A stretch of 64,000 nucleotides of DNA from an uncultured Bacteroidales bacterium. Lineage in GTDB: Bacteria; Bacteroidota; Bacteroidia; Bacteroidales; F082. A program made the translations under genes and the position numbers. A model generated the notes under the pieces. The model was not told the DNA's origin, did no database searches, and saw nothing but the letters and a program-made list of their open reading frames with translations. Positions 37,530-52,953 of this stretch are shown one piece after another (within the stretch, counting starts at the first letter, position 1; every line of letters starts with the position of its first letter). The stretch covers positions 62,001-126,000 of the forward strand of contig CAMYXP010000007.1 in assembly GCA_947303085.1 (NCBI GenBank), written 5' to 3'.

Positions 37530-38590
37530 TGGAGATAGCAGCGTTGGTTTCGGGCGGTGTCGACAGCTCCGTGATAGTGCCTCTCCTCAAGGAGCAAGGC
37601 TTTGACCCTCATATCTTTTACATCAAGATAGGCCTCGAAGGCAAGGAAGACCTCATGGACTGCCCTGCCGAGGAAGATATTGAGATCACGACGTTCATCG
37701 CACAAAAATACGGCTGCAAATTCGACATCATCGACCTTCAGAAAGAATACTACGACCGCGTGGCGCGCTACACCATGGACTCGGTACGAAAGGGGCTCAC
37801 ACCAAACCCCGACGTGATGTGCAACCGATTCATCAAGTTCGGAGCTTTCGAAGAAAAGGCCGGCTATCAGTTCGACCGCATCGCCACGGGACATTACGCT
37901 CAGCAATGGATTGACGATCAGGGAGTTGCGTGGCTTGGCACAGCAGTCGACACCTTCAAGGACCAGACCGATTTCTTGGCAAGGATAACGTATGCTCAGC
38001 TAAAAAAAGCGATGTTTCCTGTTGGAGGTATCCCGAAAAGCGAGGTGCGTCAACTAGCCGAGAAATATGGTTTGCCAAGTGCGCAACGTCATGATTCTCA
38101 AGGTATTTGCTTCCTTGGAAAAATCAACTACAACGACTATATCCGTGAATACGTAGGCGAAAAAGAAGGCGACATCATTGAACTTGAGACAGGCAAGAAG
38201 CTTGGCAAGCACAAAGGATTCTGGTTCCACACCATCGGACAGCGCAAGGGCTTAGGACTAGGCGGCGGTCCCTGGTTTGTGGTGAAGAAAGACACTGAGC
38301 AGAACATTGTCTACGTGTCGCAAGGCTACGACCCCGAGGCACAATACACCAACAAGATTGAACTCGTCGACGTGCAGGCGATGAATCCCGTCATCAAATT
38401 CAATGAGGGTGAGAAAATTCGCTATAAAATCCGTCATCAACCTGAGTTCCGAACAGGAACGCTCAGCATTACAGAAAAAGGCTTGCTCATCAACTCTGAC
38501 GTGATGATTTCGGGCGTCGCGAGCGGACAGTTCGGCACGATTTATCACGCTACGGAGCCTGTGGTGCTGGGGAGCGGGGTTATTGAATAG
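37529..38590 (+). CDS. mnmA: tRNA-specific 2-thiouridylase
   Basis: A 353-residue PP-loop ATPase: ALVSGGVDSSVIVPLL (ATP loop), NPDVMCNRFIKFGAF with the first catalytic cysteine, GICFLGKINY with the second, then a C-terminal beta-barrel. It thiolates U34 of Lys, Glu and Gln tRNAs. The start overlaps the VanX-like stop; the 3' end overlaps the convergent TIR gene by 11 nt. Confidence 0.9.
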   Translation: MEIAALVSGGVDSSVIVPLLKEQGFDPHIFYIKIGLEGKEDLMDCPAEEDIEITTFIAQKYGCKFDIIDLQKEYYDRVARYTMDSVRKGLTPNPDVMCNRFIKFGAFEEKAGYQFDRIATGHYAQQWIDDQGVAWLGTAVDTFKDQTDFLARITYAQLKKAMFPVGGIPKSEVRQLAEKYGLPSAQRHDSQGICFLGKINYNDYIREYVGEKEGDIIELETGKKLGKHKGFWFHTIGQRKGLGLGGGPWFVVKKDTEQNIVYVSQGYDPEAQYTNKIELVDVQAMNPVIKFNEGEKIRYKIRHQPEFRTGTLSITEKGLLINSDVMISGVASGQFGTIYHATEPVVLGSGVIE

Positions 38591-39710
38591 AGATGATATC
38601 CGACTCGCCGCAAGGCATCACGATGGCCGGAGTGCTCAACTGGAACGTTGCATTCAATTGATACTTTTGCTTTTGCGATTCAAGAGGCATAAACACGGAT
38701 ACATAGCCTTCTTCGTTTGACACAGCCTCGACGCCATCAATTTTAATCACGGCATTGGCAACAAATTCCTCTTTTTTCGGATTCCAGACAAAGAAATGAA
38801 CGTCGCCGTAGACTTTTGGGTTGCGGCTGATGTCTAGAACAACTTTTTTCGACAAATTTAGAACCGTGTCGACAGCGAGAAAATCGCGACACGAAATAGT
38901 GAACTGTGCCTGTTTTTTCAAGAAACGGTGCGGGATGTTGGTGAAAACCACAGGCGAGTCAATGGTTCGGATAGTGTCGGTCTTCATCTCGTTGTCGAGA
39001 ATCATAGTAATTACCGCGTTTTGCAACGGAGGCAGGTTTTCGTTGTGTACGGATGCCTCGTTAAGGCTGATTTTCACATCCACAGGCTGGTTTTTCGTCC
39101 AAACGACGAGCAACGATGCCAAAATCAGCAACCCGGCGAATGTCCCAGCCGTTATTTTTGTGATGAGCTGGCGTTTGTGTCGGCCCCAAATCGAGTCGAA
39201 CTCCACGCCGAGCAATTTAGAGATGAGCTGAACGTAGGCGCGTTCGCGGTTGAGCCATGGCTGACGGTAAATTTTCTCGTTAATGTTGGCGCCTAGTATC
39301 TCGGGCAATCCAAGTTTGTTGATTATCGGGTTGAAGCATTCTTGTTTTGGATCAATGCTATGTGGCGATCCTTCAACAATAAAAAAATGAATATCTTTAG
39401 TGCGTCCGAGGCTGTGAAAAAACTCTATTTCTTTGCCAACCCATTCTGATTGGGCCGAATATGGCGAGCAGATAACTATAAGATGCCGTGACGAGCGCAG
39501 GCGTTCTTGCAGCTCCTCGCTGAGACCTCCCGGCTGAATGTCGGTTGGAGCAAAAAACACTGGTTTTATTGGATTGCGCGGCAATTTGTGTTCACTGCAC
39601 AGCGTAGCCGGCAAACGATAACGTTCCAGTTTCTTTTGCAGTCGCTTACCCCACTCGATGTCATGAGATGAGTAGGAAATAAAGGCAAAATATTTAAAAG
39701 CTTCGGACAT
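38580..39710 (-). CDS. Membrane-anchored TIR-domain protein
   Basis: A 376-residue protein. Residues 1-140 are a TIR domain: KYFAFISYSSHD at the start and SPYSAQSEWVGKE with Glu94 at the position of the NADase catalytic glutamate. One membrane segment follows at about 184-205 (ITAGTFAGLLILASLLVVW), then a beta-rich C-terminal region with two carboxypeptidase-regulatory-like segments (NAVITMILDNEM; NAVIKIDGVEAVSNEEGYV) probably in the periplasm. It is the last gene of an AAA-TPR-TIR operon, 5 nt after the TPR gene. Role inferred: signalling or NAD-cleaving effector. Confidence 0.8.
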   Translation of the reverse strand: MSEAFKYFAFISYSSHDIEWGKRLQKKLERYRLPATLCSEHKLPRNPIKPVFFAPTDIQPGGLSEELQERLRSSRHLIVICSPYSAQSEWVGKEIEFFHSLGRTKDIHFFIVEGSPHSIDPKQECFNPIINKLGLPEILGANINEKIYRQPWLNRERAYVQLISKLLGVEFDSIWGRHKRQLITKITAGTFAGLLILASLLVVWTKNQPVDVKISLNEASVHNENLPPLQNAVITMILDNEMKTDTIRTIDSPVVFTNIPHRFLKKQAQFTISCRDFLAVDTVLNLSKKVVLDISRNPKVYGDVHFFVWNPKKEEFVANAVIKIDGVEAVSNEEGYVSVFMPLESQKQKYQLNATFQLSTPAIVMPCGESDIISIQ

Positions 39711-39715
39711 GACGG

Positions 39716-41911
39716 TTATTTCTTTTTGGATTCTTTGAGTTTGGCTTGGACTTCTTCTAATCTGTTTTTAACTTTAATCGTTTGTGGATTATCTTCACCT
39801 AAAATCGATTTGTATATTGTCAAATTTTTTTGATAGTACTCATCTGCTTTCTGTAAATTACCTGTTGTGTAATATATTCCTCCTATATTTCCATATGTAC
39901 CAGCAACATCTAAGTTATTGGGGCCTAATAGTTTCAATCTTACATCCAATGCCATATTATAATATTCCAAGGCCTTTTCGTAATCTCCACTAGTCTCAAC
40001 CATTACGCCTAAGTTATTATAACAAGTCGCTGTGCTAGAATGTTCGTATCCAAATAATCCTAAATAAATGTCAAGAGCCATAGCATTATATTCTACAGCT
40101 TTGTCAATATTCCCCATTTTAAAATAAATCGCCGCTAAATTACTATATGAAGTTGCAATATCTTCATGTTCGTTTTTATATATTGCTTTACGTATTTCAA
40201 GCGACTTTATTGTATATTCCAATGCCATGTCTAAATTTCCCATATAGATATACACAATTGCGATATTGTTATAGAACGTAGCTATGTTTTGATGTTGTTC
40301 TCCTATGATATTTTTATATATACCAACAGCTTTTTTCATGTATTCCAATGCTGTAGACAGGTCTCTCATTTTGAGATAAACATATCCTATATTATTATAT
40401 GACTGTGCAATATCAGGATGTTCCTCTCCTAATATCTTTTCACGTATTTCTATTGCCTTATTATTAAACTCTATTGCCAAGTCAAATTTATTCAAATTGT
40501 CATACACATATGCTATATTACTATATGATACAGCCATCTCTAAAAGCTTACTATCTCCATAATTCTCTTGTATGTGTAAAGTCTTTAAATAAAAATCTAA
40601 TGCTTTATTATAATCATTCAAATAACAATAAACACTTCCAAGATTATTATAAGTACTTGTATATCTGATACTATCTTCTATATGATTTTGAATCAATATA
40701 TTCAATGCCTTTGAATGGTATTCCAAAGATTTATCATACATACCCATATCACAATATACAGTCCCCAAATTATTATAATAACTTACGATATTATTATTGG
40801 GATCTGAAACATTTTTAAGATTATCTATCGCTAATTCATAATATTCTTTTGCATTTTGCAAATCTCCTAAATGATGATAAACATGCCCTATATTATTATT
40901 GACAGAAGCCAATTGTTCATAATTTTTTATGTTTTGCAAATTAATGTTATGCAAACTTGATGTATAATAGTTTAAAGCCAAATCATAGTCTGCAAGATAA
41001 AGACGAACAAAGGTTGCTACATCGTTCATCCATTCCACTTTCGTAGTATCCAACTTCACCCTTTCCTCCAAATAATACGCCGCCGAATCGTTCTTGTGCT
41101 CCAATTTGTATATCTCAAACAAGTCGTAATAGTCTTTCGCCAGATCGTCGAGTTTCTTTTGGGCCGCCAACTCGCTCTTCTCCAATTTCCTGCTTCTCTT
41201 TGTTATCTCCTCTCGCTCCTTGGCGTTCGCCTCCAGGTGCCTCTTCAAGTCCTCGGCACGCTCCGTCAAGTCTCCCTTCGACATTATCATATTCTTGGCC
41301 TTCAACAAATCGCCGCTCAATATATATGACTTTATCTGAAGCTCAAACTCGCTCAACTGGTCAAAATCCATCTTCGAATACCTGTCAACCATCTCCTCTA
41401 CAAGCTTTTGACTCTCGTTCTGCATGTCAACTATCTCCTGAAGTCTTTTATAGTATTCCTCCTCGGTTATCTTGTTCTCCTTCTTCAGTTGTTTAACCTC
41501 GGCGCGAAGTTTGGTTATCATTGCGTTCTGGGCTTCGTTTATCTTCCTGAAGTTGTCCATTCGTTCTTCTATCTGCTGATCCTTGGTTTCTAGAGCTATC
41601 ACAAGCTTGTTTTTCGAATAACTATATTGCTTGGATAACAAGTCTGGGTCAATGAGAACATAACCGTTTTTGGAAACGCTCTCAAGATAATATGTCTGGT
41701 CTGGCATCGGGAACGAAAAATCGCCTCTCTTGTCGCTCATCACCTCGTTGCGGTCTTTAACTTTGACAACAACTTCGCTTAAAGGTGTGCCTGGCATAAG
41801 TTTGCCTTCATTGTCAAGACGACCTTTGGTCTTGACGTAGCCCTTCTGGGTTTGCGCAAAGCAGGCAGTTGCAAAAAATAATGTTAGCGCAACAAATAGC
41901 AGTTTTTTCAT
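39716..41911 (-). CDS. Exported TPR-repeat protein
   Basis: A 731-residue protein with a signal peptide (MKKLLFVALTLFFATACFAQ) and an N-terminal carboxypeptidase-regulatory-like beta domain (LSEVVVKVKDRNEVM...GDFSFPM). A charged coiled-coil stretch follows at about residues 105-260, then ten or more tetratricopeptide repeats of the 42-residue kinesin-light-chain type (for example ATCYNNLGVMVETSGDYEKA). The repeat part is very AT-rich. It is probably a periplasmic scaffold. It lies 22 nt after the AAA gene and 5 nt before the TIR gene. Confidence 0.85.
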   Translation of the reverse strand: MKKLLFVALTLFFATACFAQTQKGYVKTKGRLDNEGKLMPGTPLSEVVVKVKDRNEVMSDKRGDFSFPMPDQTYYLESVSKNGYVLIDPDLLSKQYSYSKNKLVIALETKDQQIEERMDNFRKINEAQNAMITKLRAEVKQLKKENKITEEEYYKRLQEIVDMQNESQKLVEEMVDRYSKMDFDQLSEFELQIKSYILSGDLLKAKNMIMSKGDLTERAEDLKRHLEANAKEREEITKRSRKLEKSELAAQKKLDDLAKDYYDLFEIYKLEHKNDSAAYYLEERVKLDTTKVEWMNDVATFVRLYLADYDLALNYYTSSLHNINLQNIKNYEQLASVNNNIGHVYHHLGDLQNAKEYYELAIDNLKNVSDPNNNIVSYYNNLGTVYCDMGMYDKSLEYHSKALNILIQNHIEDSIRYTSTYNNLGSVYCYLNDYNKALDFYLKTLHIQENYGDSKLLEMAVSYSNIAYVYDNLNKFDLAIEFNNKAIEIREKILGEEHPDIAQSYNNIGYVYLKMRDLSTALEYMKKAVGIYKNIIGEQHQNIATFYNNIAIVYIYMGNLDMALEYTIKSLEIRKAIYKNEHEDIATSYSNLAAIYFKMGNIDKAVEYNAMALDIYLGLFGYEHSSTATCYNNLGVMVETSGDYEKALEYYNMALDVRLKLLGPNNLDVAGTYGNIGGIYYTTGNLQKADEYYQKNLTIYKSILGEDNPQTIKVKNRLEEVQAKLKESKKK

Positions 41912-41933
41912 AGTAGTTAGTTTTATGATAAGT

Positions 41934-43055
41934 TTAGAATTCTTTTTGTATCCATATTCCCATAATTGGGTCAGATAACTTTATCTCTTTGTTTTCTTCA
42001 AAAACCAACTCCTTGTCAATCAACGATTTGCGAACTATAGCAATGTTCGCCGACGAGTTGAGTTTATAGGATTCAATAATATTGGCCGATGAAAACCCCG
42101 AATGCACTCCATCGGCGACAGCTCGCAAGAAATTCATCTGATAAGCGGTCAGGTTCTCTGTCTTGCTTTCGAACACATCGCGACATTGGTCAACAAGCTC
42201 ATTCAACGCGTCGGTTAGTATATCGTCACTAACCACTCCTTCTGTTCGCTGAAAAACATACCACGACAGTTGCTGCACATACGACGAGTTGCCGTCAACC
42301 TTCCCGACAATCCATTCAGCCTGTTCGCCAGTGATAGATTTATCAGCCGCCTTGAATTTATCTGTAATATATTTCACCCAATACTCTATCGGGATTCTTT
42401 GCAAATAAATGATGTCACCAAATTTATAAAAAGGTTTTGACGTGTCGTCGAAAAGCGATTCCATCATGTGCATTTTGCTTCCGAACAGACAATATGATGC
42501 CATCTCATGATGCTGCCAAATCGAGCGAAGTTGTGTTTGAAACTGAAGAGAATCCTGAAACCTTCCTATTTGCTGAAACTCATCGATGCAAACCATCACT
42601 CGAATGTTTTTCTTTTTTGCAATCTTTTCGGGCAATTGCAGCAAATCTTCCATTGAGTTCTCCTTTTGTTTGAATTGCAACTTGAACGACATCTCACCCG
42701 ACATGTCCGCAGACGCATCAACTCCAAAGCTTAAACGGCTCAAAAATGCCTTGGCATTATCAAACCACTCTTCCATTTTGTTGGAAGTCTGCGTAAGAAC
42801 CGCCGAGGCATATCGCTCACAAAAATCATCGGCGCAACGACATTGATGAACATCAACATACACTATTTTCAAATCATCACCCTCAACTATGGTCTTTGCT
42901 TTCTTCACCAACGATGTCTTACCCCATCTGCGCGGAGACATAATGAAGGTATTCACTCCATATTTAAAGTTCGACACCAGTTTTTCTGTCTCTTTTTCTC
43001 TATCTGTAAAAGCGTCGCCGCTCACTGTTTTACCAAATACAAAAGGCGTTCTCAT
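41934..43055 (-). CDS. AAA ATPase (archaeal-ATPase-like)
   Basis: A 373-residue cytosolic ATPase. Walker A is SPRRWGKTSLV (residues 40-50), Walker B RVMVCIDEFQQIG with Asp158-Glu159, followed by a winged-helix-like C terminus. This matches the DUF-type archaeal ATPases seen in bacterial conflict and regulatory loci, a branch related to STAND proteins. The start TTTTGAGA-ATG is 49 nt downstream of a good promoter (43104-43133). It is the first gene of the AAA-TPR-TIR operon. Confidence 0.85.
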   Translation of the reverse strand: MRTPFVFGKTVSGDAFTDREKETEKLVSNFKYGVNTFIMSPRRWGKTSLVKKAKTIVEGDDLKIVYVDVHQCRCADDFCERYASAVLTQTSNKMEEWFDNAKAFLSRLSFGVDASADMSGEMSFKLQFKQKENSMEDLLQLPEKIAKKKNIRVMVCIDEFQQIGRFQDSLQFQTQLRSIWQHHEMASYCLFGSKMHMMESLFDDTSKPFYKFGDIIYLQRIPIEYWVKYITDKFKAADKSITGEQAEWIVGKVDGNSSYVQQLSWYVFQRTEGVVSDDILTDALNELVDQCRDVFESKTENLTAYQMNFLRAVADGVHSGFSSANIIESYKLNSSANIAIVRKSLIDKELVFEENKEIKLSDPIMGIWIQKEF

Positions 43056-43277
43056 TTTGTAATAATTTTATTACTAAGTTGATTATTACTAATAAATTTA
43101 TTGCAAAAATACACATTATTTTATTACACACAACTATTTTGAAAATTTTATTTTTATTCTCCGAGTTTTTGTTCTACCTCAGAGATTTTGTCTTTTATAT
43201 ATATGGTTTTATCATAATCCGATTCGTATTTTTCTGATTATATTATTTTCATATTTTGCAAAACTACTAATTATTAT
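43056..43277. other. Spacer with promoter and a short coding-like tail
   Basis: Besides the promoter, the minus strand at about 43155-43235 reads as about 25 sense codons (YDKTIYIKDKISEVEQKLGE then stop) without a usable start, perhaps the end of a decayed small gene. Otherwise it is AT-rich with nothing else recognised. Confidence 0.3.
43104..43133 (-). promoter_or_regulatory. Promoter for the AAA-TPR-TIR operon
   Basis: On the minus strand TTG (plus 43131-43133), 19 nt, then TATTTTTG (plus 43104-43111): an exact TTG-N19-TAnnTTTG match, 49 nt before the AAA start codon. Confidence 0.7.
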
Positions 43278-44441
43278 TCACTTTCCCAATTGTTTTTTGC
43301 ATTCTTTACCTTTATCATCCAAAATCACTGCTCCCAACAAACCTTCGCAGAGGTAGCGGTCAGCTGAGAGAGCGGTGATATCGTCGTAAATTGGCTGAGT
43401 AATAAGATTCCCGTCATAATCAATAAGACCGTAAGAATTGCCTGAAGTGTAATAAGCCATCAGGTTGGCCACAGCTGGTTTGAAATAACCATCATTATCA
43501 AGCTCGTTACTCTCATATTTCAGCTTCATAACACCAACGTAGTTACAAGCATTTACAACGTTTCCGTCGAAATCAAAGATCATGTCGAAATAGTCGGTGG
43601 TTCTGGCATAGACGAGTTCTTTTTGTGAATCGATTTTGATGTCGTAGTAGTCATTTGCAAGCAATTCTTCACCTTTTGCATTGATCAATCCTTCTTCACC
43701 ATCAATGTTTTCTGTTTTCCAGAAGCCTGATTTTTCATGGTAAAGATAATAATACTCAGGTTCAACGACCCATTCACCATGTTTGTTGATGAGTCCTACA
43801 CGTTCGTTATCACCCATCACGGCACACAGGCCATCGTGGAAACAGTAGCTGTCGATACGCTCAGTGTATGGGAAATTATGGTCAATAGCCGCATTGCCAT
43901 TATGGTCGATGAATGTGAGCACGCCATCTTTATAAACGCAAGCCACGTCTTCAGAAAACACCCAAGCTTTGTCATATTGCGCCGGAATTGCCAGTTCGCC
44001 AGTAAAACGGTTGAAATAGCCACGTTTTCTGTTGGAAACGAAAAATTCGAGACTGTCGCCATCGAATGATTTGCAAATCATATTAACATCAGTAATAGTC
44101 CTTACACCAGTGGTCATATTATAGATGTAGCCACCATCGTATGCATCGTGATATATGACATAAGGACTCACATAGGTGTTGTTGTATTCGTGACAATAAT
44201 TCACTGAGCGATACCTATTCGTTTGGATTTTCTCTTGTATAAAACATACAAAAGCACAAGTAAACACTATTGCTATGATAAGCATTGTAAGGCTTGCGCT
44301 GAAAGCGAAAACTCGCCATACTATTTTACCGAATGTCGTTCCTTCTTTGTAGCCGAACAACTTTGCCACCCACACGGCGGCTTGCTTGATGCCTCTGCCG
44401 ATAACGGCGAAGAAGAGGCGTGGAGAAATGTGATTTTTCAT
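43278..44441 (-). CDS. WG-repeat membrane protein
   Basis: A 387-residue protein with one membrane segment near residues 44-72 (VFAFSASLTMLIIAIVFTCAFVCF) and a following extracytoplasmic part built of WG-type beta repeats, such as YGLIDYDGNLITQPIYDDI, VGLINKHGEWVVEPEY and LTFIDHNGNAAID. WG repeats are thought to bind ligands or carbohydrates; no enzyme motif is present. It follows the zinc-ribbon gene by 38 nt and is probably the last gene of the M48 operon. Confidence 0.82.
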   Translation of the reverse strand: MKNHISPRLFFAVIGRGIKQAAVWVAKLFGYKEGTTFGKIVWRVFAFSASLTMLIIAIVFTCAFVCFIQEKIQTNRYRSVNYCHEYNNTYVSPYVIYHDAYDGGYIYNMTTGVRTITDVNMICKSFDGDSLEFFVSNRKRGYFNRFTGELAIPAQYDKAWVFSEDVACVYKDGVLTFIDHNGNAAIDHNFPYTERIDSYCFHDGLCAVMGDNERVGLINKHGEWVVEPEYYYLYHEKSGFWKTENIDGEEGLINAKGEELLANDYYDIKIDSQKELVYARTTDYFDMIFDFDGNVVNACNYVGVMKLKYESNELDNDGYFKPAVANLMAYYTSGNSYGLIDYDGNLITQPIYDDITALSADRYLCEGLLGAVILDDKGKECKKQLGK

Positions 44442-44479
44442 GATAATTAGTTTTTAAAAATAATTGTTAAAATAGTTTA

Positions 44480-44977
44480 TTATATAATTCTATAACATTT
44501 ATTACAAGTCTTTGCTCCTAAAGGCAGAATTGCGCCACAATTTGTGCAATATCTTCCCGATACGCATGATGCTGTTGCCAATGAACTTTTTAATACACCT
44601 CTTTCAGCCGCCGCCAAAGCACGATCATCCATTTCAGATTGTTGTATGAGACCCCATGCTTGGGTTAATACCACTGGCCAGAACAAAAACATAGCAATTG
44701 CAGCTGGTATAATCTGCTGCCCAAAGATTCCTACGTGTGCGTCAAATAAAACGCCGTCGCTTTGTGGTGTGAGTGATACATTCAAAGCAGTTTTCATTCC
44801 AAGAATAGCTTTAAAAAAGCCTCCTTTTGATATGCTTATGTCGCATCCACCATTGACATTATTCATCAATTCTACATCGAATTCATCTTTGATAAATTCT
44901 TGTCTTATTGATTCTGCAATAACAGGTATCTGCCTCTCCGTTGCAGACAACACTACTTTTTGATTAAATGTTCCCAT
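44480..44977 (-). CDS. Zinc-ribbon membrane protein
   Basis: A 165-residue protein with a beta-rich N-terminal domain, one hydrophobic segment (IIPAAIAMFLFWPVVLTQAW, about residues 89-109) and a C-terminal zinc ribbon (YCTNCG...CNKCY). No family name recognised. It starts 18 nt after the M48 protease gene, which also ends in a zinc ribbon, so the two may share partners. Confidence 0.65.
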   Translation of the reverse strand: MGTFNQKVVLSATERQIPVIAESIRQEFIKDEFDVELMNNVNGGCDISISKGGFFKAILGMKTALNVSLTPQSDGVLFDAHVGIFGQQIIPAAIAMFLFWPVVLTQAWGLIQQSEMDDRALAAAERGVLKSSLATASCVSGRYCTNCGAILPLGAKTCNKCYRII

Positions 44978-44995
44978 ATTTCTGTAATTATTGGT

Positions 44996-45874
44996 TTATA
45001 ATCTATTTCCACAATATTGGCAAAACTTCCAGCCATCATCAACAACATTATTGCAGTTTGGACAGACATGTTTTGATTTGCCAGGCATTAGTTTAGCATT
45101 TTTTAATCTTTTATACTGCTCACTTTCTCCCCATTTCATTATTTCCCGAACACGTACGGCGGCAAAAGGGTGATTAAGTCCGGCAATAACAGCTATTTGC
45201 AAGGCTTTATTCCAAAGATTGCTGTTTTGAATATTGTCGTAATCATCGGCTTGTTTTGCCCATTCTTCAAAATTTATCTTTGATGTTATCTTTTGTGGGC
45301 CACCAGCCAGTCTTGCCATGACTTTAGTCACAGTCTCTGGTGATGTTACAATGCTAGCAGCTCTATCGGCGGAAAGTTCACTCTTACGATACCAATACAT
45401 CATCGCATATTGCACTGGCATGGCAAGATTACCTAAAACGCCCAACACATCAACACCCTTTGTAATCCACTGTGCTATAGTATGATACAGAACATGACGA
45501 CATAATATGTGTCCACACTCATGAGCAATAACAGCATCAAGTTCTTCATTACTCATCATTTCCAACAATCCCGATGTAACGGTTATGAAGATACGAGTAT
45601 CGCCATATGTCCACGCATTTGGATTTGGATCCATCTGAAGATAGAATTCCGGCTCATTAATGCCAAGTTTTTGACATATTGGTGGCAAATGTTTATATAT
45701 TTCAGGCAGTTGTTTTTCTGACAGTCTGATCGACGAAGCCATATTAACGCCATATTGCATGGTCTCAAGACCTACAACCAACGCTTTCTTTACAATCATG
45801 GTAAAACCTGGAATGCTTTGCATCTGTTCCAAAGCAGCTCTGTCTTCAGGATGTATAAAATCGTTTGCTTGCAT
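44996..45874 (-). CDS. M48-family metalloprotease with C-terminal zinc ribbon
   Basis: A protein of about 292 residues (start chosen at MQANDFIHPED; an in-frame ATG 4 codons earlier is possible). The catalytic zinc motif HECGH is in AVIAHECGHILCRH, and the third ligand glutamate in KSELSADRAAS, as in HtpX/Ste24 proteases. The C terminus is CPNCNNVV...CQYCGNRL, a zinc ribbon. A weak hydrophobic segment follows the active site. It starts an operon with the zinc-ribbon and WG genes, suggesting regulated proteolysis in an envelope-linked pathway. Confidence 0.87.
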   Translation of the reverse strand: MQANDFIHPEDRAALEQMQSIPGFTMIVKKALVVGLETMQYGVNMASSIRLSEKQLPEIYKHLPPICQKLGINEPEFYLQMDPNPNAWTYGDTRIFITVTSGLLEMMSNEELDAVIAHECGHILCRHVLYHTIAQWITKGVDVLGVLGNLAMPVQYAMMYWYRKSELSADRAASIVTSPETVTKVMARLAGGPQKITSKINFEEWAKQADDYDNIQNSNLWNKALQIAVIAGLNHPFAAVRVREIMKWGESEQYKRLKNAKLMPGKSKHVCPNCNNVVDDGWKFCQYCGNRL

Positions 45875-45960
45875 ATTTAATCTCATTTATTAAATCAATT
45901 TCCATACAATAAGAGTACGCAAACACAATAAATCTATCACTTGCTATAACTTTATTTATA

Positions 45961-45982
45961 AAAAAAGGCGATCGAAATCGCC
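45961..45982 (-). terminator. Terminator with TTCG loop after a 21-codon ORF
   Basis: On the minus strand GGCGAT-TTCG-ATCGCC is followed by at least six T. It lies 14 nt after the stop of the mini-ORF at 45997-46062. Confidence 0.85.
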
Positions 45983-45996
45983 TTTAATATTGTCTT

Positions 45997-46062
45997 TTAG
46001 TTAATAAAAACTTCAATAAGTTTTTTTGCAATACAATGCAGTGCAATTTGCCAGAATTCCAT
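45997..46062 (-). CDS. Possible 21-residue hydrophobic peptide
   Basis: Minus-strand ATG at 46062 opens MEFWQIALHC..., an amphipathic 21-residue peptide with one cysteine, two lysines and a hydrophobic C terminus, stopping 14 nt before a strong terminator. A similarly built 23-codon ORF followed directly by a terminator lies at 48970-49041 in the same island. The ORF-plus-terminator layout hints that it is a real transcript unit, but translation is unproven. Confidence 0.35.
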   Translation of the reverse strand: MEFWQIALHCIAKKLIEVFIN

Positions 46063-46105
46063 AGTTTTAATTATTTAAGTTAAACATTTCTTTTATTTAT
46101 AACGC

Positions 46106-46291
46106 TTACAGTAACATCAGAATACCAAGTACAGATCCGACAATAGCACTAATGAGATAATGTTTAGCTGGTTCCGGTTTGACATCTTGATTGATGAAGA
46201 ATGCAACATAGCCAACGATTGGTAACACTACGGATGCTATTACTAATCCGATACTTGTCTCTTGAACTGCTGTGGTGTTTTGTGTTGTCAT
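46106..46291 (-). CDS. Small two-helix membrane protein
   Basis: A 61-residue protein (start MTTQNTTAVQE at 46291) with two hydrophobic helices, LVIASVVLPIVGYVAFF and YLISAIVGSVLGILMLL, separated by a short charged loop. It resembles DUF4190-like small membrane proteins. It lies between the RyR gene and the M48 operon; function unknown. Confidence 0.6.
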   Translation of the reverse strand: MTTQNTTAVQETSIGLVIASVVLPIVGYVAFFINQDVKPEPAKHYLISAIVGSVLGILMLL

Positions 46292-46403
46292 TTTTTTATA
46301 CACTGTTCCGTGTCGTGCGCAACTGTTAATTTTTTATTTATTGTTACTTGTTTGTTTTTCTTTTTTCATCTATGTAGAGTATGTACTATTGAAAAAAATA
46401 CCA

Positions 46404-46700
46404 CTATTTTATTTTTTTTATTTTATATCCAAGTTTTATCATGGTTTTCAATGTTCCAATGCTGGTGTTTCTGTCATATTCCTTTTCCTCTTCCGAAAGA
46501 TTCTCGTAAGGGACAAGGCATGGATGCGTCTTGGCGACATCATTACGCTGCGCACCGTATTTCCAACCTTGTGCAATACGCTTTGCTGCCCACGTCTCGT
46601 GTGTGTTCTTCGCGAGCTTTTCGCCCAATATATTGATGTCGTCCGTAAGTTCAACATCACTTGTGTCGACTGGGGCTGGTATGTATGTGTTGTGTGTCAT
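46404..46700 (-). CDS. Stand-alone RyR-domain protein
   Basis: A 98-residue protein that is almost entirely one RyR (ryanodine-receptor repeat) domain: TYIPAPVDTSDVELTDDI, NTHETWAAKRIAQGW, HPCLVPYENLSEEEKEYDR and TLKTMIKLGYKI are the conserved blocks. Bacterial RyR domains have been proposed, from genome context, to sense nucleotide-type ligands; none is proven here. It is separated from the larger RyR fusion gene by a terminator, so it may be made in different amounts. Confidence 0.85.
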   Translation of the reverse strand: MTHNTYIPAPVDTSDVELTDDINILGEKLAKNTHETWAAKRIAQGWKYGAQRNDVAKTHPCLVPYENLSEEEKEYDRNTSIGTLKTMIKLGYKIKKIK

Positions 46701-46754
46701 CTCTTTTTTCTATAATAGAGTTTCTGCTTCAGCATTTTCTATCAGTTATTAATT

Positions 46755-46783
46755 AAAAAAAGCGAATTCTTTTAGAATCCGCT
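46755..46783 (-). terminator. Terminator after the papain-like/RyR gene
   Basis: On the minus strand AGCGGATTCT pairs with AGAATTCGCT (one G-T wobble) across a three-base loop, followed by a T-run. It separates the two RyR genes. Confidence 0.75.
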
Positions 46784-46814
46784 TTATTATGTCAAAGACA
46801 ACGTCTGTCTATTT

Positions 46815-47885
46815 CTATCTGAAATCTTTCCACGACAGCTGCTTGCCGCAGTTATGGCAGAAGTTGTCGCTTGGTTCTATTACCTCTCCGCAGTCAGGAC
46901 AGCGATACATACTATTAATATTCACCAAGCGATATCCAAGTCGTTTTATTAGTTTTATTGTACTTGTTGCCATGCGACGATCAGGTTCTTTGTCTTTTTC
47001 GTCAAGCATAAAATACGGCACAAGATAATGATTATGTCCTTTTTCCTCATGTCCATCTTTATCCAACGGAGCATAAACGTATCCTTCCTTGATTTTGTCA
47101 ACAGCCCAAGTATCGTGAGCATTTTCCGCCACAAACTCTATCAGTTCTTCCAAATCATTGTTCAACTTTATTTTGTTTACGTCGATCGGTTGTGGATTAT
47201 ATTCTTGAGCAAAACGTTTCTCACGAGCTGTGACCATATAGTTTCTCGATTCAGCCCATGCGTTTTCAAACGTTTCAAGGTCGTAAACGCTCATCTCTTC
47301 ATCATTAGCCGGATTGTAAATGGAGATTTTTTTTGCTGTTTTATCAATCGAAAGCACAACAACTGCATGATTTGGATTGTCGTCAAAGTTAAAGTCCTTT
47401 GAAAAAATGTCGATTTCTCCACCAGAAAGGGTTTTCCCGTTAACGACCACAATAACGCTATATTCCTTTAAAGCCTTTTCCAGATAATCGATGGTTGCAT
47501 TATATTGCCTATTCACCAGAAATCCTTCATGCTCCATAAGTTTTCCCATATTAAACAAAGGTGTGCCTTCGTTACGCAGCCAGTAGTTGCGTTTTGATTC
47601 CTTTGCAAGAGCGTTTTCTTCAACTTTGTGGCCTGCTCTTTTTATTATAAAAGACTCACATTGGAAATCACACAGGTTTTTGCCATCATCGGCCGCCATG
47701 CTGCTAATCGGTATAAAGCTGCCATAATCCTCCATTTGTTCGTTGGTGTATGTCATACGTCTGTTTGTGACTACATATTCCTCCAACTGTTGATCAACAG
47801 CAATAGCGGAAAGTATTTCCATTGTTTCATCAGCTGACGATTCCCCTGAAAGGAACTTATCCATTTTATCTTTTGATACGGTCAT
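46815..47885 (-). CDS. Papain-like (C39-like) peptidase / RyR / zinc-ribbon fusion protein
   Basis: A 356-residue protein in three parts. Residues 1-65 are helical, like the N terminus of anti-sigma factors encoded after sigma genes. Residues 66-225 look like a C39-type papain-fold domain with candidate Cys76 in DFQCESF, His173 in NHAVVVL and Asp195 in NPAND. Residues 230-325 are an RyR domain (NAHDTWAVDKIKEGY, HYLVPYFMLDEKDKEPDRR), followed by a zinc ribbon CPDCG...CHNCG. It lies 60 nt after the sigma-like gene. Inferred role: sensor or protease controlling that factor. Confidence 0.72.
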   Translation of the reverse strand: MTVSKDKMDKFLSGESSADETMEILSAIAVDQQLEEYVVTNRRMTYTNEQMEDYGSFIPISSMAADDGKNLCDFQCESFIIKRAGHKVEENALAKESKRNYWLRNEGTPLFNMGKLMEHEGFLVNRQYNATIDYLEKALKEYSVIVVVNGKTLSGGEIDIFSKDFNFDDNPNHAVVVLSIDKTAKKISIYNPANDEEMSVYDLETFENAWAESRNYMVTAREKRFAQEYNPQPIDVNKIKLNNDLEELIEFVAENAHDTWAVDKIKEGYVYAPLDKDGHEEKGHNHYLVPYFMLDEKDKEPDRRMATSTIKLIKRLGYRLVNINSMYRCPDCGEVIEPSDNFCHNCGKQLSWKDFR

Positions 47886-47945
47886 GATATGTTTGTTTTT
47901 ATGATGAAGAGTCTATCTTTTTCAAAAATCTACCATTTGTTTTAT

Positions 47946-48848
47946 TTATTTCTGTTTTTCAAGCTTCCGCTGCTCTTTAATCTCCCTGCGTTCTTCTTTC
48001 TCATCAATCTTTGTCTCTCGTTTTGCTGTTTTCAGCAACACGTTATAAGCTTTCACAATTTCTCTTTTCAGAACAACATAGTTAACATTCTTTTCAAGAG
48101 CTAGTTCTTTGATACTCAAGCCACTGAAAAAGAATTCGTTTAACAGTTTTGCTTGATTTACAGGCAAATCAGCCTCAAATGTTTTATAAAGATGCTTTCC
48201 TCTGTATTTTATATCCGACAAAGCAATGCCTATCAGCTGATCCCATGCTCGCTTGTAGTCCCTGTTGATATCATCTACACTTTTATTATATTCTTCTGCC
48301 AACAATTCCCTGTCAACATCCTCCAGCTTTATGGCGCATAGCAAATCTCTATAATACTCATTGCTGATCTGGTTTATATATACACTGATTTGGGTTCGTG
48401 CCCAATCTGACGACGAATGGGGCTCTTCTACATCCTCTCTGTCGGTAATCTCAACCTTTTCGCCGAATTCTTCTTCGTAATACAATCCGATATGCTCATC
48501 TATGCTTTTCCTGTTTTTTTTGATAAAATTATCAGCGGTAATAAAAAGCCAGTTTTTCAAATCCTCAACAGCAAGCAATGTCTCTGGTTTTATGCTGACA
48601 ACATATAATGCAAAAAGCGAATAAAATGAATTGTAAATATCTTGAAAGCCATCCACTACACTTTTATACCTGTCATCGCTAGGATTAAACCATTTTCTGA
48701 CAGCATTCTCAACAGCAGAAACATACGGGTTCTTTACATATTTGGTTGTATGCCCCTCATAAATAGCGGCACCACGTAACACGAGCGATATATACCTGTC
48801 ATCTCGTTTTATAAGACCGTTGATAATCTGTTTTTCTGCACTATTCAT
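47946..48848 (-). CDS. Sigma-70-like (ECF-type) factor, divergent
   Basis: A protein of about 300 residues starting MNSAEKQIINGL at 48848. The longer frame is excluded because the promoter at 48878-48907 puts the transcript start downstream of it. The N-terminal half has a region-2-like helix set (FNPSDDRYKSVVDGFQDIYN...LKNWLFITADNFIKKN). The C-terminal half has a region-4-like helix-turn-helix (LNEFFFSGLSIKELALEKN, VVLKREIVKAYNVLL), and a charged tail follows. It is longer than usual ECF sigma factors. It precedes the papain-like/RyR gene as sigma genes precede anti-sigma genes. Confidence 0.7.
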   Translation of the reverse strand: MNSAEKQIINGLIKRDDRYISLVLRGAAIYEGHTTKYVKNPYVSAVENAVRKWFNPSDDRYKSVVDGFQDIYNSFYSLFALYVVSIKPETLLAVEDLKNWLFITADNFIKKNRKSIDEHIGLYYEEEFGEKVEITDREDVEEPHSSSDWARTQISVYINQISNEYYRDLLCAIKLEDVDRELLAEEYNKSVDDINRDYKRAWDQLIGIALSDIKYRGKHLYKTFEADLPVNQAKLLNEFFFSGLSIKELALEKNVNYVVLKREIVKAYNVLLKTAKRETKIDEKEERREIKEQRKLEKQK

Positions 48849-48877
48849 AAAAACACAAAAACATATGATTTGAGATG

Positions 48878-48907
48878 CAAAGATATAGAAAAAAGACAAA
48901 ACTCCAA
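48878..48907 (-). promoter_or_regulatory. Promoter for the sigma-like gene
   Basis: On the minus strand TTG (plus 48905-48907), 19 nt, then TATCTTTG (plus 48878-48885). It matches the Bacteroidetes consensus and decides the start codon of the gene at 48848. Confidence 0.75.
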
Positions 48908-48941
48908 ATAATCTTTTTGAAGATATAAATATTATAAAAAC

Positions 48942-48963
48942 AAACGGGAGATATCTCCCGTTT
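48942..48963. terminator. Bidirectional terminator, perfect 11+11 palindrome
   Basis: AAACGGGAGAT is followed directly by its reverse complement ATCTCCCGTTT, with T-rich flanks on both sides. It lies just after the stop of the 23-codon ORF and upstream of the sigma-like promoter. Confidence 0.8.
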
Positions 48964-48969
48964 TATTCT

Positions 48970-49041
48970 TTAGTTCTTAATTTCTCTGTAGATTGTGCGA
49001 CATAAGACATATAAGAAAGCCGCCATCATTCCTGTACTCAT
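48970..49041 (-). CDS. Possible 23-residue peptide
   Basis: Minus-strand ATG at 49041 opens MSTGMMAAFLYVLC..., a short hydrophobic peptide with one cysteine and a basic C-terminal half, ending 6 nt before the palindromic terminator. It has the same size, cysteine and terminator layout as the ORF at 45997-46062. It could be a membrane-active or signalling peptide, or a chance ORF. Confidence 0.35.
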   Translation of the reverse strand: MSTGMMAAFLYVLCRTIYREIKN

Positions 49042-49117
49042 AGTGTTTTACTTTTTTTGATTCACTTTTGTTTTTAATATACTGAAGAGGAATCTGTTTC
49101 TTTTTGTATATTATTTA

Positions 49118-49237
49118 TTACTGCATTATTTTATTGTTTTCGTTGTTGCCGAGCATCGGTAGTACCATGTTTGACTGCCCATTGTTAACATAGTATTTGA
49201 GAATTTCCATTTCCACTCTTGCTAAATATGTTTTCAT
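49118..49237 (-). CDS. Possible 39-residue peptide
   Basis: Minus-strand ATG at 49237 opens MKTYLARVEMEILKYYVNNG..., an amphipathic N-terminal helix followed by an asparagine-rich tail, 24 nt downstream of the secreted 145-residue gene. No family recognised. Its position in an otherwise gene-free 410-nt stretch with two other signals makes it plausible. Confidence 0.35.
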   Translation of the reverse strand: MKTYLARVEMEILKYYVNNGQSNMVLPMLGNNENNKIMQ

Positions 49238-49261
49238 GACTATTTATTTTTTGATTACAAT

Positions 49262-49699
49262 TTAACTTTTGTTCTCATTCTTTCTTTTGATTTCAGCTAA
49301 GTAGTAGTTAGGCTCGCCCTCAAATTCATTGATGATGTTGTATGAATAATCGTAGATATAATCCGTATATGGGCATTCCCAACATGCATTTGTGCCATCA
49401 GGATATGTTACAAACACCCTGTCACCACGGTGCCAATACCAATTAGATGGTCCTATAACAAAACCGTCGCCATATCCAGAAATAAAAACTGTAGTGTTGG
49501 TTGAAACACTGTTATAATAACTGACTGTCGTAACTTTGATTACACCGCTTGTATTGAAATTATTTGTTGCAGTGAAATAGCAGTGACCATCATTGAGGAT
49601 TACAAATTCGCCCCACAGCTGTGCTGATGCGATATTGCTGGTAACAAACAATGCTGCTAAGAGCATGAGTCTTTTGAAGTTTTTAGTGTAGTTTTTCAT
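49262..49699 (-). CDS. Small secreted protein of unknown function
   Basis: A 145-residue protein with a signal peptide ending around SNIASAQLWG. The mature part is rich in aromatic residues and glycine, with CYFTATNNF, WYWHRGDRVFVTYPDG and CWECPYT, suggesting a beta-sandwich with possible disulfides. I recognise no family. It lies between the TIR-WD40 gene and the tiny ORFs and is read in the same direction. Confidence 0.6.
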   Translation of the reverse strand: MKNYTKNFKRLMLLAALFVTSNIASAQLWGEFVILNDGHCYFTATNNFNTSGVIKVTTVSYYNSVSTNTTVFISGYGDGFVIGPSNWYWHRGDRVFVTYPDGTNACWECPYTDYIYDYSYNIINEFEGEPNYYLAEIKRKNENKS

Positions 49700-49787
49700 C
49701 GTGTTTTATTTTTTAAGTTAATAATCTTGTTAATTTCAACTTAAAAGAGTCACACTTTTGAAAAAAATATCACCAAAATGGAAAATT

Positions 49788-52082
49788 TTATTCTAAATAA
49801 TACAACTTTTTTTCTTCCTCCGTAAGAGGTCTGTCTTTAAAGCGCTCGCAAGTTTGGTCGATGAGCTCCTGAAGAGGAGGGAAGTTCCATACTTTTAATT
49901 CACCGTAATCAAGCGATACGGTTGCAAAAGTTTTGTTATCAGGACCATAAACAACGTATTTGTTTTGCACATCTACTATGCTTTGTACACAAACACCAGA
50001 TTTATAATCCCATATCTTTATTGTACTGTCATGCGAAACAGTAATCAGATATTTATCATCATCGCTTAGTGTAAAACCATATATTTTTGCAGTGTGACCC
50101 AAAAATGTTCTTAGTCTCTTACCTGTTTTAATATCTGACACACATATTGTATTTATATCTATAGTGATTATCTCTTTGCCATCATGGCTCGTCATTGAAA
50201 CATTGCTTTCTGGACAAATGTTAGCGTTTACATTACTAGTTTTTTCCGCTGACAGCCTTTCCCCCGACAGAACATCACAAACCCAAATACTATCGTTTGA
50301 ATAACATGTAATATGCTGCCCATCCTGACTATAACTAGGAGGATTTTTTACTGAATATATATTAAAGCTTTTAACTTTATCATAACTGCCATCCACATTA
50401 CCGACATCCCAAACTCTGACAGTATAGTCAACTGAACCAGTTACAATCCTTTTTGAATCAGGACTAAAATGAGGAGAGGTTACATATATTGTATGACCTT
50501 TTAATATTTCCATGCAATTACCTGAAGTAACGTCCCACAATCTTGTTGTAGCATCATCTGAACTTGAAGCAACCATATTACCATCATTACTAAAGCTTGC
50601 ATATTGAACACTTTTAGTATGTCCTTTCAAAGTATGAATACACTCCATCGTATCAAAATCCCAAATCTTTACAGTACAATCTACCGAAGCCGATACTATA
50701 TATCGTCCATCAGGACTAAACTCAACTGATTGCACGTTTTTTTGATGTCCAAATAATGTTTTTATGCAAACTCCACGATTAGCATCCCAAACCTTAACCG
50801 TCCTATCAGCTGAAGCTGAGACTATTTTTTGTCCATCGGGTGAATATACAGCACATTCAACCATTTTTTCATGACCTTTTAATACCTTTAGACATTCACC
50901 GGTCACTACATCCCAAATCCTAATAGTTTTATCTCTTGATGAAGACAACAAATGCTTCCCATCAGGACTAAATGCAACTGAATAAACTCCGTTTTCATGG
51001 CCATAAAGAGTATTTAAGATTTTCAATGAATCTATATCCCATATTATAACTGTCTTGTCATCAGAACATGAAGCTATTTTTGATAAATCATGATTAAATA
51101 CCGCTTTGTTTACATGATTGCTATGACCATAAAATGTTTTTAAACATACTCCATTACTGGCATCCCATAGTTTTATTGTTTTGTCGTATGATGTGGATAA
51201 TATATATTGTCCATCGTTGCTAAAAAAAGTACTGGTCACAGCCGCCGTATGTCCGACAAAAACAGCGGAATTGTATGTTGTTGCAGTTCTTAGTGCAGAT
51301 TCAAACTCAGGAACATAATTCTCATTATCATATTTATTATTCAAAAGATAACTGAGTGCAATGATTCTTGCCAAATATGAATCATTTTTTGCTGTTGTTT
51401 TAATTTTTTCTGACACAAGACGTGATTGCTCCTCCATCATCTTCCAATCCTTCTCTTTTATCTCAACATTTTGCCTCCAAATCCAACCAGCCACACCTGT
51501 CATCACAAGAAAACCAATGATACTTGCTGAAATAATCCAACTGCGACGTCTTCTTTTCTCCCTCTCCTGCCGCTGCCACAACTCATCGAACTGCAAACCG
51601 AACATACTGGCGACTACTTTCACTGCCGCGGCATCACGCCCCATCTCGTTGATATTTACTCCCAACAACTCCTGTTCCTTAGGCAACTTTCTGAGAGACA
51701 ACGGAAAACATTCTTCTTCAACATTTTCTGAATATGGCGCACCTCCCACGATAAAAGGAATGATCTTGTCTATGCGTCCCATTTCAATAAATGACTGCAC
51801 CTCCTTGCCGACCCATTCCGACTGCGCGGCTCGTGGAGAGCATATTACAATAAGGTATTGTGAGTTTTCAAGCGCATTTTTAATCTCTTCAGCCAAAACA
51901 CCTCCTGCCAAATCAGACGTATCCCTGAATATAGGTCTTATCTCCTTCGGCAAATCGCTTCTTCCATTAAGATTTGAAGGTAATTTGTAATGCTCCAACT
52001 TGTGCTGCAGCCACTTCGCCCACGCCTCATCCTCTCGCTTATAGCTTATGAAGGCAAAATACTTTTTGTCGATGACGGTCAT
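49788..52082 (-). CDS. TIR-domain / WD40-repeat membrane protein
   Basis: A 764-residue protein, started at the ATG at 52082 because the promoter at 52119-52149 lies inside the longer open frame. Residues 1-140 are a TIR domain (YFAFISYKREDEAWAKWL; SPRAAQSEWVGKE with Glu94 as the likely NADase residue). A basic stretch and one membrane segment follow (about 181-202), then about ten WD40 repeats with GH...WD endings (for example HTLKGHTKSVQYASFSNDG). WD40 would be outside the cytoplasm by the positive-inside rule. It shares TIR and linker design with the protein at 38580-39710. Confidence 0.87.
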   Translation of the reverse strand: MTVIDKKYFAFISYKREDEAWAKWLQHKLEHYKLPSNLNGRSDLPKEIRPIFRDTSDLAGGVLAEEIKNALENSQYLIVICSPRAAQSEWVGKEVQSFIEMGRIDKIIPFIVGGAPYSENVEEECFPLSLRKLPKEQELLGVNINEMGRDAAAVKVVASMFGLQFDELWQRQEREKRRRRSWIISASIIGFLVMTGVAGWIWRQNVEIKEKDWKMMEEQSRLVSEKIKTTAKNDSYLARIIALSYLLNNKYDNENYVPEFESALRTATTYNSAVFVGHTAAVTSTFFSNDGQYILSTSYDKTIKLWDASNGVCLKTFYGHSNHVNKAVFNHDLSKIASCSDDKTVIIWDIDSLKILNTLYGHENGVYSVAFSPDGKHLLSSSRDKTIRIWDVVTGECLKVLKGHEKMVECAVYSPDGQKIVSASADRTVKVWDANRGVCIKTLFGHQKNVQSVEFSPDGRYIVSASVDCTVKIWDFDTMECIHTLKGHTKSVQYASFSNDGNMVASSSDDATTRLWDVTSGNCMEILKGHTIYVTSPHFSPDSKRIVTGSVDYTVRVWDVGNVDGSYDKVKSFNIYSVKNPPSYSQDGQHITCYSNDSIWVCDVLSGERLSAEKTSNVNANICPESNVSMTSHDGKEIITIDINTICVSDIKTGKRLRTFLGHTAKIYGFTLSDDDKYLITVSHDSTIKIWDYKSGVCVQSIVDVQNKYVVYGPDNKTFATVSLDYGELKVWNFPPLQELIDQTCERFKDRPLTEEEKKLYYLE

Positions 52083-52118
52083 AATGATATCTTTACCCAA
52101 CAATAAAAATTGTCTTGG

Positions 52119-52149
52119 CAAAGATAGATACAAAATATTAAAAAAACAA
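52119..52149 (-). promoter_or_regulatory. Promoter for the TIR-WD40 gene
   Basis: On the minus strand TTG (plus 52147-52149), 20 nt, then TATCTTTG (plus 52119-52126), 36 nt before the chosen start codon. It stands back-to-back with the rightward promoter at 52154-52185. Confidence 0.72.
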
Positions 52150-52153
52150 TTTT

Positions 52154-52185
52154 TTTGTTTTTGTATTAAACTTTTTATATCTTTG
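52154..52185 (+). promoter_or_regulatory. Promoter for the membrane-protein gene
   Basis: TTTG (52154-52157), 20 nt, then TATCTTTG (52178-52185), 33 nt before the ATG at 52219; it fits the Bacteroidetes consensus well. Confidence 0.75.
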
Positions 52186-52218
52186 CATCGAAATACTAAC
52201 CTTAAAATAACTAAAAAC

Positions 52219-52821: not shown

Positions 52822-52850
52822 TCGTTTTATTTAAAAACAAAAAACAGAAA

Positions 52851-52878: not shown

Positions 52879-52879
52879 T

Positions 52880-52952: not shown

Positions 52953-52953
52953 A

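Follow-up and report, generated by a model that had tools for sequence, protein, structure and literature searches.

We analysed a window of 64,000 nucleotides from an uncultured Bacteroidales bacterium (contig CAMYXP010000007.1 of assembly GCA_947303085.1, positions 62,001 to 126,000) and found an inserted island in which two membrane TIR proteins stand together with a divergent sigma factor, a C39-type peptidase fused to a RyR domain and a stand-alone RyR protein. RyR and TIR genes are linked beyond chance in related genomes, and the island is real and conserved, probably as a new variant of nucleotide-signalling immunity. Its best explanation, to which we give about an even chance, is a TIR-RyR second-messenger relay, probably anti-phage, with a protease-sigma arm. 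A sequence-only reading of the same DNA had listed the minus-strand genes (two membrane TIR proteins, an ATPase, TPR, WG and WD40 proteins, an M48 protease, zinc ribbons, a divergent sigma factor, a papain-like/RyR fusion and a stand-alone RyR protein), and this gene content was confirmed by Pfam and open reading frame (ORF) analysis. What that reading had missed were the probable anti-sigma domain in the protease protein, the channel versions of the system and the insertion site. Our Pfam and PADLOC scans covered ten of the twelve island proteins, all but the stand-alone RyR protein and a protein of 65 amino acids (aa). The host is a gut bacterium whose genome (2.31 Mb, 99.88% complete) has its only two RyR matches and its only two TIR_2 matches on the island; it is labelled G000 here, G and L numbers being our working labels for genomes and loci. 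The features on which the argument turns are the following, TM standing for transmembrane, ECF for extracytoplasmic function and HTH for helix-turn-helix.

49788..52082, minus strand: TIR-TM-WD40 protein (WD40, TIR_2; SEWVGKE glutamate), likely start at residue 62 of an 825-aa ORF
38580..39710, minus strand: TIR-TM protein with a beta-type C-terminal domain (TIR_2 6e-11, ThsB_TIR 1e-6; SEWVGKE), its 3' end overlapping the end of mnmA
47946..48848, minus strand: divergent sigma factor of the ECF type, with an additional HTH at the C-terminus; the ORF opens at 48899, likely start at residue 18
46815..47885, minus strand: C39-RyR fusion, whole gene
47742..47885, minus strand: fusion residues 1-48, probable anti-sigma domain (three predicted helices)
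47205..47687, minus strand: fusion residues 67-227, C39-type papain-fold cysteine peptidase (C76, H173, N191)
46926..47201, minus strand: fusion residues 229-320, RyR domain (PF02026 8.9e-24; 40% identity to 3nrt in Foldseek)
46815..46913, minus strand: C-terminal zinc ribbon of the fusion (Zn_ribbon_3 1.4e-8)
46404..46700, minus strand: stand-alone RyR protein, 98 aa (PF02026; H34, W37, H59, D76)

The sequence-only reading had staked its idea on TIR and RyR genes being found together elsewhere, and the two indeed co-occur and co-localise in many genomes. Of 173 genomes of the family, 39 have a RyR match (PF02026); 33 of these belong to the genus, which is represented by 99 genomes. A sample of 396 genomes from the class, which includes G000, holds seven with a match, four of them above the cut-off. 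Within the genus, TIR_2 is found in 31 of the 33 RyR genomes versus 39 of the 66 others (Fisher p = 3e-4). A TIR_2 match lies within 10 kb of RyR in 22 of the 33, where 0.95 would be expected from random placement of RyR clusters, and within 5 kb in 18; 52 of the 105 TIR_2 matches sit within 10 kb of RyR. These linkage counts use 49 of the 52 RyR matches, the three below the cut-off being dropped. The common restriction gene N6_Mtase, chosen as a control, is near RyR in none of the 33 genomes, even at 20 kb (150 of 190 methylase matches used), and on this control a generic defence-island cause of the linkage was rejected. Among 79 named loci chosen by RyR alone, 41 have a TIR in the stretch (at least five of the 79 are the same contigs as genus loci, and some contigs are short), and 18 have neither a TIR nor a RyR-fused protein. 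For 44 of these loci, mostly long stretches, whole genomes were searched: 26 hold a TIR, where the expectation is 1.4 (2.8 with genome counts doubled), with loci scored by a custom TIR hidden Markov model (HMM) and genomes by PF13676. Stand-alone RyR adjoins a TIR or a RyR-fused protein in 31 of 61 named loci and lies within two genes of one in 40, after removal of duplicates (five named loci duplicating genus contigs, which are kept in the 79-locus TIR counts); in the genus such a protein is the immediate neighbour in 15 of 24 cases and within two genes in 18. Random placement is assumed in the co-localisation tests, and each related genome enters them as a case of its own; the genomes are mostly metagenome bins, and the taxon labels of some named loci are possibly wrong.

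Binding of cyclic ADP-ribose (cADPR) by animal ryanodine receptors has long been debated. RyR was reportedly discussed in nucleotide-centred conflict systems by Burroughs 2015 (NAR), and a 2020 J Bacteriol paper is said to come from the same group. Structures of bacterial RyR domains have been solved since 2010 (3nrt). According to a 2026 preprint (PMC13232231), the phage RyR-domain protein RyDEP cleaves 2'/3'cADPR through a catalytic dyad of H75 and D117, with W78 and H100 contacting base and phosphates; six of eight homologues tested bind 2'/3'cADPR, and those other than DyoEdafos RyDEP show no signal cleavage. By title, this was the sole paper on RyR-domain function in phages or bacteria among the papers listed by the literature searches, an earlier TIR-RyR proposal being possible. 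No experimental test of a bacterial RyR host function was found in the literature searched, and no such role appears in PMC7159879, which does not mention RyR, in PMC8195603, which mentions it in its reference list only, or in passages on cADPR toxins in PMC3482391.

All four RyDEP residues have counterparts in the stand-alone RyR protein of the window (125.1 bits to PF02026, curated cut-off 27.4), where H34, W37, H59 and D76 align with H75, W78, H100 and D117. The fusion (87.0 bits) keeps H257, W260 and D302, equivalent to H75, W78 and D117; at the H100 position, inside an HNH stretch, it has H in the profile alignment and N in MAFFT. Across the collected domains (found with an HMM iterated on such domains, known duplicates dropped), H75, W78, H100 and D117 are kept in 90/90, 90/90, 81/90 and 90/90 stand-alone proteins, in 23/23, 23/23, 13/23 and 23/23 C39 fusions, in 42/43, 43/43, 42/43 and 41/43 channel proteins and in 38/39, 39/39, 38/39 and 36/39 other RyR fusions. 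These residues suggest that ligand binding is likely kept, and the domains probably read or process a TIR product; both estimates draw mainly on H75, W78 and D117. The stand-alone protein also matches the animal ryanodine receptor over four repeats (phmmer, 7.3e-66). Phage records with a RyR match number 237, two of the matches being over 80% of the query, and twelve IMG/VR contigs carry RyR proteins 50-63% identical to that of the window. As for the presumed source of the ligand, the TIR glutamate is kept in 128 of 129 aligned TIR domains and is present in both window TIRs, in which it is the candidate catalytic residue of the SEWVGKE motif; these two proteins may convert NAD to a signal of the ADP-ribose (ADPR) type.

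The predicted sigma factor of the window is a divergent member of the ECF type: TIGR02937 is matched by 18 of 20 members of its family at E <= 0.1, and the sigma fold supports this type. In all 23 readable cases its gene adjoins that of the C39-RyR fusion (the C39 copy of L080, at a contig edge, is not counted); 22 of the pairs are co-directional, and the sole divergent pair encodes the sole fusion protein that lacks the N-terminal domain. The fusion has the papain fold and the Cys-His-Asp/Asn triad of C39-type peptidases; across C39-RyR fusions the triad is conserved and the catalytic Cys and His are invariant, and hydropathy shows no TM segment in the C39-RyR protein. Helices are predicted at residues 5-12, 18-30 and 32-48. 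When a profile of the first 75 residues of 22 members was compared with 177,635 PDB sequences, AF1502 ranked first (0.11), and the N-terminal MucA/RseA chains 8z6g_A (0.19) and 6in7_A (0.20) ranked second and third; the corresponding profile of the sigma factors placed 9n9q_C first (0.0086), followed by the sigma chains of 8z6g and 6in7 (0.032 and 0.036). Single members give weak matches to zf-HC2 (4 of 22, best 7e-4), RseA_N (2 of 22, 8e-3) and anti-sigmaE (2 of 22, 5e-3). From these weak profile matches and the strict pairing with the sigma gene, we assign the N-terminus with good probability as an anti-sigma domain. The missing anti-sigma row in VIA-align is uninformative, since the rows of the fusion are limited to its C39 part. 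The fusion protein is probably the regulator of the neighbouring sigma factor, and proteolysis is slightly favoured as the switch.

Domains, residues, gene linkage and the insertion can be read from the sequence, and from them we infer the following biochemical steps. The membrane TIRs, tuned by WD40, TPR and beta domains, would be triggered by infection or stress and, with their catalytic glutamate, would turn NAD into an ADPR-type signal. Host RyR domains would receive this signal, as RyDEP and its binding residues suggest. Once bound by the RyR domain of the fusion, the signal would activate the C39 peptidase, which would cut a low-confidence, probably disordered linker or otherwise break the anti-sigma hold, and the freed sigma factor would change transcription. 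In a less firm step, the stand-alone RyR protein might buffer or hydrolyse the signal, as phage RyDEP does; that it is an off-switch falls a little short of an even chance. In sister loci, an RCK-type channel with a divergent RyR part may serve as the output instead of the protease or beside it. On the whole we lean towards a role in phage defence. The earlier proposal that RyR responds to a TIR-made nucleotide and that a protease acts on the sigma factor is partly supported, and is strengthened in that the RyDEP residues are kept and the sigma gene adjoins the C39-RyR gene in every readable case. The M48, WG, TPR and ATPase genes recur in only part of the loci.

Several results weigh against this relay. 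No TIR lies in the stretch of 38 of the 79 named stand-alone-RyR loci, and a strictly TIR-bound RyR domain is rejected on this count; in the genus, TIR_2 is missing within 10 kb of RyR in 11 of 33 RyR genomes, two of which lack it altogether. Neighbours of TIR-less RyR genes include a fucosidase, GH92, GH20, MATE and an ABC-2 transporter. A TIR is also missing near 7 of 23 C39-fusion loci (5 of 14 named, 2 of 8 genus and 0 of 1 window; custom HMM). Ten of 23 C39 fusions have another residue at H100, whose state in the window fusion depends on the aligner; moreover, since the RyDEP catalytic dyad is kept in fused domains too, residues do not separate sensing from hydrolysis. On the sigma side, 8z6g and 6in7 are both the AlgU-MucA complex and count as one hit, every anti-sigma match is weak, and the window fusion alone matches none of zf-HC2, RseA_N and anti-sigmaE; no shared ECF promoter motif rises above shuffles upstream of 20 sigma genes. 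The channel proteins have a divergent RyR part, for which Pfam gives no match in the single member scanned (from L046), and PADLOC models match the island only in TIR, TPR, WD40 and ATPase parts, or weakly.

The seven C39-fusion loci without a nearby TIR would fit a store of independent defence modules in an insertion hotspot, in which the sigma/C39-RyR pair answers another cue (e.g. the state of ATP/ADP or NAD) while the TIRs act as NADases on their own. Terminator-like hairpins that split the island into units agree with this, as does the binding of adenine nucleotides by human RyR3 Repeat12 (PMC13232231). However, linkage with RyR is not common to the restriction gene of the control, TIR_2 is carried by 23 of 23 genomes with C39-RyR (though 70 of the 99 genus genomes have it anyway), and three gene sets found at the mnmA site, each different, combine a TIR with a RyR-fused protein; we consider independent modules rather unlikely. 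It is also improbable that the RyR proteins only protect the host by mopping up or cleaving TIR products (NAD salvage, leak control) while their fused partners are regulated otherwise. RyDEP does hydrolyse cADPR via an H/D dyad that every stand-alone domain keeps, but RyR fused to a channel, a C39 peptidase and other large proteins is a sensor layout, and the tested homologues other than DyoEdafos RyDEP fail to cleave signals (PMC13232231). Finally, the sigma/protease arm might be a stress or envelope response apart from phages, with RseA-like regulated proteolysis, recruited beside the TIRs: the anti-sigma matches point to the envelope-stress pair AlgU-MucA, and M48 and WG/WD40 membrane proteins are encoded nearby. 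The C39-RyR protein without a TM segment, the insertion-site behaviour and the close RyR proteins on phage-type contigs all argue against such a response, which we regard as very unlikely.

If the TIR-RyR relay is true, it explains what phage RyDEP proteins evade, would to our knowledge be the first case of a TIR-made signal acting on transcription, and provides small soluble proteins for asking whether RyR domains bind cADPR; with the RCK-channel-RyR proteins, nucleotide gating of a bacterial RyR channel could be tested directly. New here are these RyR-RCK channels, the C39-RyR/sigma pairing, the N-terminal anti-sigma-like domain and the invariant catalytic Cys and His. A wider proposal would make TIR-RyR a general bacterial immune messenger system, with RyR as the host receptor for TIR-made (cyclic) ADPR and with two outputs (an RCK channel gated via RyR, and sigma-factor release by a protease that RyR triggers); the RyDEP proteins of phages would be captured host receptors, and the animal cADPR-RyR-channel logic would have a bacterial immune ancestor. 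This is tentative, and we would sooner doubt than accept it.

PADLOC found no system among the ten proteins scanned. Its matches are to ThsB (2.5e-5) and SAVED_TIR (4e-8) in TIR parts, to TPR (1.2e-20), to HEAT-ARM_XIII in the WD40 part (3.1e-21) and to PDC-S27 for the ATPase (1.3e-5), others being weaker; a Cas10d match on the M48 protein (0.0035) was taken as chance. The island resembles Thoeris in having a TIR with a conserved Glu (ThsB_TIR 1e-6) beside a separate protein with a candidate sensor of an ADPR signal, but its sensor is RyR and one of its outputs is a sigma factor; no match to the ThsA-type domains (SIR2, SLOG, macro, caspase-like) is among the matches listed for the ten proteins (25 of 55 families for the WD40 protein). 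In Craspase (TPR-CHAT Csx29), a protease arm is reportedly tied to an ECF-type sigma factor; neither a CRISPR gene nor a CHAT peptidase was recognised on the island. In type III CRISPR CalpL-CalpT-CalpS, as described in PMC12751052, a nucleotide sensor fused to a protease acts on an anti-sigma factor and frees the sigma factor, and viruses counter this with the sensor domain alone. Here too a sensor-protease would free a sigma factor, and phages likewise use the RyR domain alone, but RyR takes the place of SAVED, a C39 papain fold that of Lon and TIR that of Cas10, and the anti-sigma domain apparently lies within the protease chain. As Pfam finds neither Lon nor SAVED among the ten proteins, the island resembles the CalpL-CalpT-CalpS logic but is not a member. 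RyDEP shares the Pfam domain and the four aligned ligand or catalytic residues of the stand-alone RyR protein; it is a phage counter-defence enzyme, whereas the RyR genes of the island are host genes, fused to effectors. The likeness to animal ryanodine receptors comprises the phmmer match to Repeat12 and the joining, in sister loci, of divergent RyR to a BK/CASTOR-like RCK channel, although the bacterial channel is of the two-TM RCK type and differs from the RyR pore.

The channel HMM is matched by 49 of 87 fused RyR proteins longer than 320 aa, and two TM segments are predicted in all eight long members examined. An alignment of 16 members matches BK (2.3e-7), CASTOR (3.9e-5) and DMI1 (6.6e-5), and its end matches a ryanodine-receptor chain (0.0018); sister loci thus appear to join a divergent RyR domain to an RCK-type channel. 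No GYG of a K+ filter was seen in the L046 channel sequence. Twenty-eight RyR-fused proteins form a second class; the eight of them examined have three or four TM segments each, the single member scanned has no Pfam match, and the RyR end was recognised by the custom HMM and conserved residues. In three loci, RyR is fused to an N-terminal part with an HD-type motif seen by eye (L055:5448-7475, L063:2476-4506, L102:10308-12008), which may make them RyR effectors of a third kind. Two RyR neighbours give weak matches, to SLATT_5 (L075:757-1329, 0.0018) and DUF4231 (L087:8059-9975, 0.0019); SLATT domains serve other nucleotide-signalling systems as membrane effectors.

The remaining features of the island, which is bounded by mnmA and a fusA-type gene, are as follows.

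38590..52954: inserted segment; mnmA (plus strand) ends at 38590 and the fusA-type gene (minus strand) has its 3' end at 52954
49262..49699, minus strand: 145-aa protein with a signal-like N-terminus, probably secreted (ORF only; no convincing family)
48942..48963, minus strand: terminator-like hairpin before the sigma gene (9-pair stem, T-rich tail; consensus match only)
46759..46785, minus strand: terminator-like hairpin after the C39-RyR gene (12-pair stem, T-rich tail; consensus match only)
46106..46303, minus strand: 65-aa two-TM protein (hydropathy)
45964..45985, minus strand: terminator-like hairpin after the small TM gene
44996..45886, minus strand: M48 metallopeptidase with a zinc ribbon (Pfam 2e-18)
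44480..44977, minus strand: TM/zinc-ribbon protein that pairs with M48; the pair recurs in other RyR loci
43278..44441, minus strand: membrane WG-repeat protein (Pfam 2.6e-20)
41934..43055, minus strand: ATPase of the ATPase_2 family (Pfam 7.9e-9), present also in the G120 and G049 islands
39716..41911, minus strand: TPR protein, adjoining the TIR-TM-beta gene

The insert measures 14.4 kb (38590-52954), as judged by blastn of the junctions in relatives: DNA homology to G137 and G070 ends at 38589 and restarts at 52955, and the limits are 38571/52955 in G122 and 38589/52943 in G082. Between 40001 and 52000 the six 2-kb bins have a G+C content of 35-40%; it is 45% in bin 38001-40000, which is mostly insert, and 44-49% in the next bins outside. 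mnmA was matched in 38 of 40 genus genomes searched (the window genome included), and its neighbourhood was fetched for 12 relatives, six of which lack the insert. fusA directly follows mnmA in G137, G070 and G048, and a single 184-aa gene separates the two in G122, G094 and G082; no fusA lies within the stretch in G060, G087, G053 and G072, although G060 has a C39-RyR gene and a TIR 9-13 kb beyond mnmA. At mnmA, G049 has a TIR-WD40, an ATPase, a second TIR-WD40 and an RCK-channel-RyR protein, and G074 has two TPR proteins, a TIR, a protein of 341 aa that by eye is MscS-like and another of 369 aa in which the custom HMM finds a RyR part; this G074 set leaves its contig and is visible on the mnmA side only. 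The three occupied sites (window, G049 and G074) have a TIR and a RyR-fused protein in common. The mnmA-fusA junction resembles an insertion hotspot for TIR/RyR gene sets in the genus (window, G049 = L182, G074 = L183). No convincing match to an integrase or transposase family was found among the ten insert proteins scanned.

On the minus strand, the genes run from TIR-TM-WD40 through the 145-aa protein, sigma, the C39/RyR/zinc-ribbon fusion, RyR, the 65-aa two-TM protein and M48 to the TM/zinc-ribbon protein, the WG-repeat membrane protein, the ATPase, TPR and TIR-TM-beta, with intergenic gaps of 5 to 362 bp. The hairpins at 48963-48942 and 46785-46759 flank the sigma and C39-RyR unit; the whole hairpin scan is at chance level (10 found versus 9.2 expected), and the named hairpins are distinct by stem length and intergenic place only. 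Because terminator-like hairpins stand between its genes, the island probably comprises several transcription units. The TPR gene adjoins a TIR of the TIR-TM-beta type here and in six of seven other loci with such a TIR. An M48 zinc-ribbon peptidase and a TM/zinc-ribbon protein occur near RyR, with or without the C39 fusion, in L034, L044, L048, L052, L079, L090 and L099. Inside the insert and extending past 52082, where the sequence-only reading ended the island, an ORF for a 257-aa membrane protein (52048-52821, plus strand) was not found in the 12 mnmA neighbourhoods. A cultured strain, Phocaeicola barnesiae DSM 18169 (L081), has a related locus with RyR, a RyR-fused protein and a TIR. Stand-alone RyR genes lie beside glycoside hydrolase or transporter genes, with no TIR in the stretch, in L076, L098, L110, L122 and L123. 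On the phage-type contigs L189, L190, L191, L192 and L199 (L189 and L190, like L194 and L195, have identical gene maps), a stand-alone RyR gene precedes three genes for proteins of about 207, 293 and 401 aa. The third of them encodes a phage adenylosuccinate synthetase (phrog_1211) in L190, where a phage DNA ligase is also encoded close by. L193, which may be bacterial, has a TIR and a RyR-fused gene beside RyR.

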